This document shows positions 47,603-51,092 of a stretch of 64,000 nt of DNA, piece after piece. The notes below the pieces were generated by a model. That model was given only the letters and a program-made list of their open reading frames with translations. It was not told the origin of the DNA and did not search any database. The stretch comes from Fibrobacter sp. UWB11 (GTDB taxonomy: Bacteria > Fibrobacterota > Fibrobacteria > Fibrobacterales > Fibrobacteraceae): NCBI RefSeq assembly GCF_900143015.1, contig NZ_FSRT01000001.1:248001-312000 (forward strand), in the 5' to 3' direction. Both the position numbers and the translations under genes were made by a program. Every line of letters starts with the position of its first letter. The stretch's first letter is position 1.

Positions 47603-48163
47603 ATGGATGAATATCCTCCACTGCGGATTGCAGGGATTGAGCCCGAATCATTCGTGGACGGTCCCGGAATCCGCTTGACTGTGTTTACTCAGGGCTGTCA
47701 CCACAACTGCCCAGGTTGCCAGAATCCGCAGACTCATGATTTTGAGGGCGGACACTTTATCGAGCGCGAAGCGATCATCACGATGATCAAGGAAAATCCG
47801 TTGCTCGATGGCGTGACGTTTAGCGGAGGCGATCCGATGGACCAGGCGGCGGCACTTGTTCCGCTTGCACGCGAAATCAAGGAACGCGGTCTCAATCTCG
47901 TGATTTTCACGGGATACACGTACGAACAGCTGATGAAGCTTACGCCCGAAAAGCCGGAGCTCTTTGAATTGCTCTCGTTTGCGGACATCCTCATCGACGG
48001 TCCGTTTATCATGGCGAAAAAATCGCTGGACATTAAGTTCAGAGGTTCTTGGAACCAGCGCATTATCGATGTGCAAAAGAGCCTTGTCGAAGGCCACGTG
48101 GTCATCCACCAGATTCAATTGGACGAGATGGCGGAACACCCCGACAGGGAATACAATACGTAA
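47603..48163 (+). CDS. nrdG: Anaerobic ribonucleotide reductase activating protein
   Basis: Radical SAM activase that installs the glycyl radical of NrdD. 186 residues. Cluster motif CHHNCPGC (Cys32, Cys36, Cys39), GIEPESFVDGPGIRLTVF before it and TFSGGDPMDQAAAL, the SAM-binding block, after. Starts one base after the glycyl peptide gene; same operon as nrdD, so the two-part reductase and its activase are made together. Confidence 0.95.
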   Translation: MDEYPPLRIAGIEPESFVDGPGIRLTVFTQGCHHNCPGCQNPQTHDFEGGHFIEREAIITMIKENPLLDGVTFSGGDPMDQAAALVPLAREIKERGLNLVIFTGYTYEQLMKLTPEKPELFELLSFADILIDGPFIMAKKSLDIKFRGSWNQRIIDVQKSLVEGHVVIHQIQLDEMAEHPDREYNT

Positions 48164-48263
48164 GTTAATTCTAAGTTACTAGTTACTAGAATGTTGTTGG
48201 TTGTTGAGAGTGTCATCCTGAATATAGGGCGTTGCCTAAAGTCAAAAGATTAAGTGAACTGTA

Positions 48264-48288
48264 AGGGTGCCGTGGGCATCCTTTTTTT
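48264..48288 (+). terminator. Terminator of the nrd operon
   Basis: Stem AGGGTGCC/GGCATCCT (one G-T pair) with loop GTG, followed by T7. Confidence 0.85.
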
Positions 48289-48315
48289 ACATATTTAATA
48301 GAGCTTTTATTGGTT

Positions 48316-48526
48316 TTAGTATGTAATTTGGAATTTCGATTTTTTAACCTTACATACTAAAATTGATTTTTTGGGGTGTTAGTATGTAATTTTTAGTCGA
48401 AAAATGCTAATACAAGTGATTTTTTTTTGTGAATATTATGTTTTGGAGGCTGATTTCTGTTGTTTTTGTCCGTTTAGTTGGTTTCTTTTACATACTAATT
48501 TTAGAATTTTGACTTTTAGTATGTAT
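48316..48526. repeat. Cluster of five TTAGTATGTAA motifs in both orientations
   Basis: In a very A+T-rich gap, TTAGTATGTAA occurs at 48316-48326, 48379-48389 and (last base changed) 48516-48526, and its reverse complement TTACATACTAA at 48350-48360 and 48488-48498. Opposed copies can pair into hairpins. The spacing is uneven. The whole gap 48164-48780 (617 bases) otherwise holds the nrd terminator, a TAGTTA-rich patch at 48165-48195 and a hairpin at 48656-48677. Confidence 0.75.
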
Positions 48527-48655
48527 ATGAATAAATTATACACGCTGAAAGGCGTGAAAAATGTGTGTAAATGGTCGTTTTTTGGCCATGTTGGCCCTCA
48601 CGATGACGTATAAGGCGGGAGCTGCAGATGTCGAAGCATGATCCGCCATCTAAAA

Positions 48656-48677
48656 GATTCCACCAAGCTGGTGGATC
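48656..48677 (+). other. Perfect hairpin upstream of the collagen-like lipoprotein gene
   Basis: GATTCCACCA/TGGTGGATC with a short AGC loop, followed by TTGTGCTTTT; a possible weak terminator about 100 bases before ATG 48781. Confidence 0.5.
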
Positions 48678-48780
48678 TTGTGCTTTTCATCGAATTTTTT
48701 GACACTATCCCATTCCCTACATTCCGTAGCATTGTTATATTAGGCTCTAAAATCCTAAAAATTCTATACGGGAGTGCGTT

Positions 48781-50199
48781 ATGAGCGCAATAAGATATTC
48801 TTTCGTGGCTGGCGTTGTTGTTATCGCCATGCTTACAGCATGCGGTGACGATGTCCTCAATATAACCGAATTGAGCGAGAAAGCATCTCTCGACATTGTC
48901 GAAAAATACAAGGAACTGCCGAAGTGTGAAGAGTCCGTTTACGGTTCATTGAATTACGTTCAGGATTCTTCGCAAGTATTCGCCTGCACTTCGGATGGCT
49001 GGGTGTCGCTCAAGGGTGAAAAGGGTGCCAAGGGTGACGAAGGCAAGGCCGGTGAAAACGGCAAGAACGGCGAAGACGGCAAGAACGGGGAATCCTGCAC
49101 GACAAAGGCCGTCGAGGGTGGGGTTGAGGTGAGCTGCCCGGGGTCTGAGCCGGTCGTAATCAAGAACGGCGACAAGGGCGCCGACGGCAAGAGCGCTTAC
49201 GAACTTTCGGGAACGGACAAGACGCTGGAAGAATGGCTCGCCTCGCTGAAGGGCAAGGACGGCGAGTCCTGCACGACAAAGGCCGTCGAGGGTGGGGTTG
49301 AGGTGAGTTGCCCGGGGTCTGAGCCGGTCGTAATCAAGAACGGAACGAACGGCGAGAACGGGACGAGTTGCAATATTGTAAGCGACAAGGACGGCGTCGT
49401 TACGATTCAATGTGGCGAAGGTGAAAATGCCAAGACCACTGAACTCCATAAGACCGTGTGCGGCACAAAACCGTTTGACCCTGCAGACAAGTTCTGCTAT
49501 GCGGAGGAATTGTATGACCTGTGCAATGGCGATAAGTACGACCCAGAGCGTCAGTTCTGTGCCAAGTTTAATGACGATGCGAAAATGGAACAGATCTACA
49601 AAATGGTGACTATCGCTCCGGAAGGAACGGTTTACAGCGAGACCTGGATGGCCGAGAACCTGAACTACAAAACAGAGAACAGCTGGTGTGGTGGCGGAAG
49701 TGGAACGACGGAAGGCGATTGTTCTGTTTACGGTCGCCTGTACACGTGGACTTCGGCGGTCGGGAAGACCGAAACGGAGTGCGGTTATGGACAAGAATGC
49801 AATCTGGGCACGGGCGATATCCGCGGAGTCTGCCCCGAAGGCTGGCACCTGCCAAGCCAAGAAGAATGGGAAGACCTGTTTGAGGCTGTTGGCGGTCAAG
49901 TTGTTGGCGGTGAATCGACGACGGCCGGAGCCAAGCTCAAGTCCACAAGCGGCTGGAATGATTATAGAGGAGAAAGCGGCAATGGCTCGGATGCTTTCGG
50001 CTTTTCCGCGTTGCCCGCCGGCGGCAGGAGCAACTATGGCAGTTACGACTACGGAGGCGACTTCGCGATCTTCTGGAGTTCTACTAAGTACGATGTCTAC
50101 TACGCGTACCTCATGAACTTGCGCTACGACCACGAGTATGCGTCCATGATCCCCCTATACAAGTACTACGGGTTTTCAGTTCGTTGTCTCAAGGACTAG
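48781..50199 (+). CDS. FISUMP lipoprotein with collagen-like repeats
   Basis: 472 residues. Lipobox MLTACG (Cys21); residues about 75-105 and 130-185 have collagen-like Gly-x-y triplets (GEKGAKGDEGKAGENGKNGE, GDKGADGKS, GTNGENGT) broken by a twice-repeated module (ESCTTKAVEGGVEVSCPGSE, then PVVIKNG) encoded by a near-identical 87-base DNA repeat. The C-terminal 200 residues are a FISUMP domain (ETWMAENLNY, CPEGWHLPSQEEW, STSGWN, FSALPAGGR, FSVRCLKD). GGGAG lies before ATG 48781. Phage-tail-like collagen modules in bacterial surface proteins form trimers; that is plausible but inferred here. Confidence 0.87.
   Translation: MSAIRYSFVAGVVVIAMLTACGDDVLNITELSEKASLDIVEKYKELPKCEESVYGSLNYVQDSSQVFACTSDGWVSLKGEKGAKGDEGKAGENGKNGEDGKNGESCTTKAVEGGVEVSCPGSEPVVIKNGDKGADGKSAYELSGTDKTLEEWLASLKGKDGESCTTKAVEGGVEVSCPGSEPVVIKNGTNGENGTSCNIVSDKDGVVTIQCGEGENAKTTELHKTVCGTKPFDPADKFCYAEELYDLCNGDKYDPERQFCAKFNDDAKMEQIYKMVTIAPEGTVYSETWMAENLNYKTENSWCGGGSGTTEGDCSVYGRLYTWTSAVGKTETECGYGQECNLGTGDIRGVCPEGWHLPSQEEWEDLFEAVGGQVVGGESTTAGAKLKSTSGWNDYRGESGNGSDAFGFSALPAGGRSNYGSYDYGGDFAIFWSSTKYDVYYAYLMNLRYDHEYASMIPLYKYYGFSVRCLKD
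49082..49342 (+). repeat. Internal duplication of an 87-base segment within the collagen-like gene
   Basis: The segment coding GESCTTKAVEGGVEVSCPGS to KNG is present at about 49085-49169 and 49259-49343 with almost no base differences, implying a recent duplication. Confidence 0.85.
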
Positions 50200-50202
50200 C
50201 CA

Positions 50203-50290
50203 GCCGAGTGATGCGGTCGCCAAGTTTACTTGAGCGGCCATTTCCGAGGCGCAGTAGTCTGCGCTACGCAGTAGCGCCATGACAAGCAGT
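50203..50290 (+). repeat. 3' flank repeat shared with the FISUMP gene at 2367
   Basis: CCGAGTGATGCGGTCGCCAA, GGCCATTTCCGAGGCGCAG and a hairpin (GCGCTACGCAGTAGCGC) follow the stop codon in the same order as at 2355-2456. Confidence 0.75.
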
Positions 50291-50318
50291 GAGGGACTCC
50301 CTCTTTATAAAATAAAAA

Positions 50319-50342
50319 AAGGCTCCCCGCAGGGGGCCTTAA
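50319..50342. terminator. Terminator-like hairpin after the collagen-like lipoprotein
   Basis: Stem AAGGCTCCC/GGGGGCCTT with loop CGCA, preceded by A7 (a T7 tail on the minus strand), so it may stop transcription from the right as well. Beyond it, 50343-50480 is intergenic repeat of the GTCATTCTGA and 28.5-kb type. Confidence 0.6.
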
Positions 50343-50553
50343 ATGTTTTGGATTGCTTCGCCCCATGGGGCTCGCAATGACGTGCTAGGTTATTCAGCAC
50401 GGATGCTTGCATACGTATTGAATAACCGACGCTGTCATGCACTCAGTGCAATGACGTAGGGGCCGAGCGCAACGCGGACTCGATTTTTTTTCGAGCACTC
50501 AATATTGCTAAAACGATTGTTTTTAGTGCTGTTTTAGTACTTTTTTGTAAAAA

Positions 50554-50807
50554 ATGCAATTTTTAAAGTATGGAAAAGATTGTATTGGCAGCACCATATC
50601 AACACGCCCGAAATCAATACCTGGATGGGCCTGTCGTTTGAACGTATCTGCATGTCGCACATTCTGCAAATCAAAAAGGCTTTACGAATCGACGGCATTT
50701 CAACAATCAATTATGCTTGGCGCAGTAAAAAATCTACACCAGGAGCGCAAATCGACTTGGTGATTGAACGAGCCGACAGAATCGTCAACCTGTGTGAAAT
50801 ACGATAG
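50554..50807 (+). pseudogene. Remnant of a DUF4143/DUF234-type AAA ATPase, C-terminal end
   Basis: Reading frame from about 50580 gives INTWMGLSFERICMSHILQI and PGAQIDLVIERADRIVNLCE, which is the typical C-terminal end of the predicted AAA-superfamily ATPases that end with a nuclease-like GAQIDLLIDR...CEIKF block. No Walker motifs and no N-terminal 350 residues are present; the frame ends with a stop directly after CEIR. The preceding 60 bases show traces in a neighbouring frame. A decayed mobile or accessory gene. Confidence 0.7.
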
Positions 50808-51092
50808 GGTCCAAACAGAACCTAAAAAATACCATTTAGTATTATGCCAAATAATGTAATTCTTGTGTAATCCCTGAAGTGCGGTCACGTCCTCTTCGCG
50901 TTTTTTTTCGTACCCCTTGCAAACGGTTGTTGGCAAAATGCAGGGCCCGACAAGCGACCTCTTGTTTTTGAAAATTGAACATTTTATATTATAGACACCA
51001 CCGTAGAAGTGTGTTGCCGGGTTTCACCTGTCTAGTGATGCTCCATAGTTAATATATCCGTTACTTATATGAAATAAACAAGGGACAAAGCT

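Follow-up and report, generated by a model that had tools for sequence, protein, structure and literature searches.

The closest described parallel to the locus analysed here is formed by the REP, BIME and REPIN repeats together with RAYT (TnpA-REP), which share with it short inverted motifs in alternating orientation, regularly spaced and located between genes (PMC2817692, PMC3116915). REP/RAYT systems are defined by an HUH Y1 (IS200/IS605-like) transposase and by hairpin-forming palindromes that keep complementary changes, and in these systems the gene is bounded by two inverted cognate repeats and its presence correlates with repeat abundance (PMC2817692). MITEs offer a second comparison, since they resemble the arrays described below in being non-coding, a few hundred bp long, inverted at their termini, flanked by a target duplication and probably moved in trans. 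Among proteins, homing endonucleases of the I-Bth0305I type (EDxHD/Vsr-like) and TnsA both work in DNA mobility, and they provide the folds closest to the catalytic domain of the protein linked to these arrays.

Fibrobacter is an important cellulose degrader of the rumen. The window analysed here, a stretch of 64 kb from Fibrobacter sp. UWB11, contains one intergenic array of inverted motifs that is, with a probability of roughly two in three, an orphan and partly decayed copy of a mobile Fibrobacter element whose arrays would be copied by a cognate nuclease-like protein. A search of the open-access literature on Fibrobacter repeats, REPIN/RAYT, phased palindromes and long target duplications retrieved no description of such a gene-plus-array system.

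All five matches to TTAGTATGTAA with at most one mismatch in the whole window lie inside a single 240-bp gap. Four are exact, at 48316-48326 and 48379-48389 on the plus strand and at 48350-48360 and 48488-48498 on the minus strand, while the fifth, at 48516-48526 on the plus strand, carries one mismatch; the positions and orientations are exactly those of the original prediction, which had counted five copies. A two-mismatch scan adds a sixth arm that had been missed, TTACATATTTA, in inverted orientation at 48287-48297. With this arm included, the array (48287-48526, with no strand assigned to it or to its parts) comprises three complete dyads of the form TTACATACTAA-N17/18-TTAGTATGTAA, each 39-40 bp long; the distance from arm to arm is 28-29 bp in each of them, and the start points of successive units are separated by 63 and 138 bp. 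The first dyad (48287-48326), which joins TTACATATTTA to TTAGTATGTAA, is degenerate with two mismatches, the second (48350-48389) is perfect, and the third (48488-48526, 39 bp) has a single mismatch at its last base. Between the second and the third dyad lies an A+T-rich linker of 98 bp (48390-48487) of a kind that is not conserved between arrays. Single-strand folding is possible for two of the three dyads.

Immediately 5' of the first dyad, a terminator-like stem and T-run (48265-48286, plus strand; GGGTGCC-GTG-GGCATCC-TTTTTT, read by eye) closes the transcript unit of the left neighbour, an nrdG-like radical-SAM activase gene (47603-48163, plus strand). The right neighbour, which lies outside the element and starts 254 bp from the array, encodes a FISUMP-domain (TIGR02145) lipoprotein (48781-50199, plus strand). 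Its collagen-like G-x-y stretch, the 92-bp internal duplication and a weak similarity to models of collagen-like adhesins from streptococci were recorded as side observations.

When the window was shuffled 100 times, TTAGTATGTAA gave on average 0.36 matches with at most one mismatch and never more than 2, so that none of the shuffles reached 5. Across the whole genome (3.76 Mb), the genome-wide count that had been proposed returned five exact sites, four of them in the window array, and the reversed pattern, used as a control, returned 3. No further dyad of the window type occurs in this genome at up to three mismatches, and the A+T content of the sequence does not explain the frequency of the motif. 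Scanning the entire window without regard to arm sequence revealed no second array. The sole exact motif outside the window (L005, G000:C2:623384) is an isolated arm outside any array.

At the matching site in relatives, conservation is partial. A decayed dyad, homologous to the first dyad of the window array, is present in G071 and is followed by a Peptidase_U49 gene instead of the lipoprotein gene, whereas G086 has neither array nor lipoprotein. As a separate observation, close species have different genes in the gap downstream of nrdG (window positions 48164-51092; L036-L050), among them the FISUMP lipoprotein and Peptidase_U49 genes, so that the gap resembles an insertion hot spot.

Among the 111 genomes searched, many of which are incomplete MAGs, TTAGTATGTAA is present in 40; in most members of the family it is scarce, but some genomes have it in abundance, with 73 sites in G035, 34 in G038 and 28 in G078. 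In a GTDB scan with one genome per species, 37 of the 40 stretches with the exact dyad belong to Fibrobacter. The three remaining genomes lack the gene family described below, and their dyads were treated as chance occurrences. In these relatives the motif forms arrays of two to four dyads. Over all arm types, arrays consist of two to six dyads of about 40 bp with arms of about 10-11 bp, and the sequence of their linkers and spacers is mostly unconserved between arrays. A second recurring motif, resembling TTACTTTATACA or TGTATAAAGTAA, was seen in passing in the linkers of TTACATACTAA arrays (L065-L103; for example L075, L076, L078, L069 and L073).

Across the genus, the arrays are neighboured by genes that share no relationship, and some arrays stand between convergent genes. 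Since the arrays have no constant neighbour and a different gene stands at the G071 site, regulation of the lipoprotein gene was rejected. At one gene-pair locus, GSCFA/TIGR02147, arrays occupy the same place in several species and carry other arms, TTACGTAC in G086 among them, which suggests either replacement of the arms in place or repeated insertion. The loci L065, L101, L145 and L183 represent this one intergenic gap with different arm types in different species.

The spacing of the dyads is informative about how the arrays may be recognised. For 352 centre-to-centre distances between successive dyads, drawn from 144 arrays of all arm types, the values cluster at approximately 53, 63, 74, 84, 95, 106, 117, 127, 136, 147, 157 and 167 bp, and for a 10.5-bp period the mean vector has a length R of 0.92 and a phase of about 0. 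This result is not circular, because the array finder restricts the spacing and not the phase. As the dyad spacings are multiples of 10.5 bp, a protein probably binds the phased dyads on one face of the DNA. Where a comparison with RNA-guided TIGR-Tas or IS110-like systems is concerned, helical phasing points to DNA binding. Furthermore, in 246 dyads both arms vary independently, and changes are uncompensated within dyads, which argues that each arm is a predicted double-stranded half-site and not one strand of a hairpin; selection for a hairpin was rejected on the same test. Rfam covariance models gave no match at their gathering thresholds, and the reading as an RNA element was dropped. The suggestion of a regulator array is strongly supported by these data as far as a phased protein-binding array is concerned, while its link to the lipoprotein is not, given that the G071 array adjoins another gene.

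The most recurrent protein family near arrays has about 275 residues and was met at 12 loci, the other recurrent families being FISUMP and TIGR02147; genes for transposases or other mobility functions do not recur next to arrays. A profile search located the gene in 49 of the 111 genomes, with as many as 8 copies per genome. Fibrobacter and one sister genus are the only genera of the phylum that have it. Linkage between gene and array is tight: in a sample of 70 genes, outside which about 45 further family genes lie, 58 have an array with three or more dyads no more than 400 bp away by an arm-agnostic search, whereas none of the 95 real and none of the 140 simulated control stretches does. The array stands only upstream of the gene in 47 cases, only downstream in 6 and on both sides in 5. 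Twelve genes lacked a nearby array of at least three dyads by the automatic test. Two of these twelve (L282 in G084 and L283 in G022) have, by eye, direct-repeat arrays on both sides that are 84-93% identical and consist of TTACGTAA- and TTACGTCA-type dyads lying about 199 bp apart (19 turns).

Individual genes have different arms, of which more than 15 sequences were distinguished. The outer part of an arm, about 6-7 bp long, varies, while the inner part, (C/T)TAA(A) or CAAA, is commonly shared. The similarity of the arms tracks the identity of the proteins (Mantel r 0.35, reached in 0 of 2000 permutations). Consistent with this, a genus-wide search found dyads of the TTACGTAC type, up to 63 per genome, in exactly those 7 of the 111 genomes whose sampled genes bear TTACGTAC arms (P 3e-11). 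Similarly, a gene with TTAGTATGTAA arms is present in 12 of the 18 genomes with at least three TTAGTATGTAA sites and in 0 of the 62 others. There is also a counter-case, as G040 and G071, both incomplete assemblies, hold many TTAGTATGTAA arrays, yet only genes with other arms were seen in them.

In the structural model (pLDDT 87.8), the protein starts with long helices, accompanied by a small beta sheet, and ends in a PD-(D/E)XK nuclease-like domain. E178, E224 and H225 are invariant and D209 is nearly so; nuclease activity is uncertain because the third PD-(D/E)XK motif reads WEH instead of (D/E)xK. Structural alignment of the catalytic part gave Z scores of 8.8 for I-Bth0305I (2.6 A over 89 residues), 8.3 for TnsA (3.4 A over 114 residues) and 6.8 for Vsr. 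These fold matches are of middling quality: Foldseek returned no significant match (E>0.06). Pfam, NCBIfam and PHROG did not identify the family, and a sequence search of the PDB found no solved structure. The PADLOC candidate PDC-S68 matches the C-terminal 115 residues or so (E about 1e-24). The N-terminal part has only generic coiled-coil matches. Those of the full model include IS621 (IS110) and TasH, which were judged generic because they are absent among the matches listed for the N-terminal model alone.

Six plasmid matches (H1-H6) were noted in which the nuclease-like C-terminal domain ends large AAA/RecQ-type ATPases, from Rhizobium, Vibrio, Bartonella and others. A phage or plasmid origin of the system was rejected, since IMG/VR contains no exact dyad, a pattern search of viral contigs found the protein family absent, and plasmids match only the C-terminal domain. 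One gut scaffold filed as phage, MT839528 (L300), encodes a distant full-length relative of the protein and has no array.

Evidence that the arrays move comes from their insertion sites. In G025 and G088 (L181 and L197), an array interrupts a target and is flanked by a target duplication of 82-83 bp; the L181 target is single-copy and array-free in G018, G062, G063, G022, G035, G084 and G000. In G027 (L089), an array with the arm type of the window is flanked by a 66-bp duplication of the end of a gene, which is single-copy and array-free in relatives. In addition, a solo array of G025 (L180) is a 414-bp copy, 91% identical, of the gene-linked array in L176 and has a 43-bp target duplication, and G038 holds four copies of one element with 82-89% identity. 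The control for target duplications reached at most 22 bits. Only 3 insertion events among 80 arrays have kept a recognisable target duplication, and the lengths vary. Several genes sit between two direct-repeat arrays, and recombination between such arrays could leave solo arrays behind, by analogy with solo LTRs. The proposal of a recombination target came close to this outcome, in view of the insertions with target duplications and the array copies in relatives, while nothing was found in favour of a replication- or partition-like site.

An alternative is that the protein is a DNA-binding autoregulator with a secondary or dead nuclease domain, the dyads repressing its own promoter and the dispersed arrays forming a regulon. 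The predominance of arrays upstream of the gene would fit this, and cooperative operators typically show helical phasing; however, dispersed arrays stand beside unrelated genes and even between convergent ones, solo arrays are insertions with target duplications, and the catalytic-type residues are invariant, all of which makes the operator explanation unlikely. It is quite improbable that the arrays are passengers of another mobile element, driven by a DDE transposase or an IS200/IS605-like enzyme, and that the nuclease-like protein only exploits them; they might, for instance, serve a defence nuclease as decoys or self-marks. Such a role would agree with the resemblance of the C-terminal domain to a candidate defence family and with its fusion to large AAA/RecQ proteins on plasmids, but the gene that recurs beside arrays is the nuclease gene, along with FISUMP and TIGR02147, not one for mobility, and the arm sequence follows the nuclease-like protein. 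Finally, the A+T-rich gap and the nearness of the lipoprotein gene could suggest that an A+T-rich word has clustered by chance, or that the sites regulate that gene locally, but the shuffles already refute the chance version, dozens of arrays in other species have the same architecture and another gene follows in G071, so that this reading is extremely improbable.

In the favoured reading, that of a mobile element with a cognate protein, each arm sequence pairs specifically with a single member of the protein family, whose gene adjoins its own array or lies between two. The protein would bind the arms as independent double-stranded half-sites and may load cooperatively along the phased dyads, and its presumed nuclease activity, together with host repair, would copy arrays to new sites. 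Solo arrays would then be non-autonomous passengers. A profile search found the family gene absent from the window genome, and the flanks of the window array show no target duplication; since, in addition, one dyad is degenerate, the window array is best read as an old orphan, a partly decayed copy of the mobile element family. The window genome would have lost the gene or never fixed it, leaving the array as a passive remnant.

As in REP/RAYT systems, a gene stands beside its cognate repeats, repeat abundance follows the gene, the repeat sequence is species-specific, and many copies have no gene. Adjacency and the correlation with abundance are both seen here, whereas delimitation by two repeats is not the rule, most genes having an array on one side only. 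The Fibrobacter protein is PD-(D/E)XK-like and not HUH Y1, with no match of the latter kind in Pfam, NCBIfam or PHROG. Its arms are putative double-stranded half-sites 28-30 bp apart that lack compensation within the dyad, its dyads are helically phased over 200-430 bp, its target duplications measure 43-82 bp, and its copies number tens rather than hundreds. With a protein other than an HUH Y1 transposase and repeats whose hairpin complementarity is not maintained, the Fibrobacter system works like REP/RAYT, its nearest parallel in both architecture and behaviour across populations, and is not a member of it.

The arrays start and finish with inverted arms, which gives them the terminal inverted repeats of MITEs; unlike MITEs, they contain internal phased dyads and have long and variable duplications (43, 66 and 82 bp) instead of short ones of fixed length, and no parent DDE transposase was found for them. 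With I-Bth0305I and TnsA only the fold is shared, as the Fibrobacter gene has no intron, intein or Tn7 partners and is adjoined by genomic arrays. PDC-S68 proteins differ as well, being about 1200 aa long, while the Fibrobacter protein stands alone with its arrays.

A wider proposal, put forward tentatively and with more doubt than confidence, is that these arrays represent a new class of bacterial mobile element. A stand-alone protein of PD-(D/E)XK type, loading cooperatively onto the helically phased dyads, would copy the array that it binds to new sites with long target duplications, and within a single genus protein and array would have diversified into more than 15 matching specificities. 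If true, this would be a second, independent bacterial solution to the task performed by REP/RAYT, achieved through a nuclease-type fold and double-stranded phased sites, in which a resident enzyme spreads copies of the platform to which it binds through the genome. The more than 15 matched pairs of protein and site in a single genus make the recognition code directly testable, and the same explanation, if true, would account for a class of unannotated intergenic repeats in Fibrobacter.
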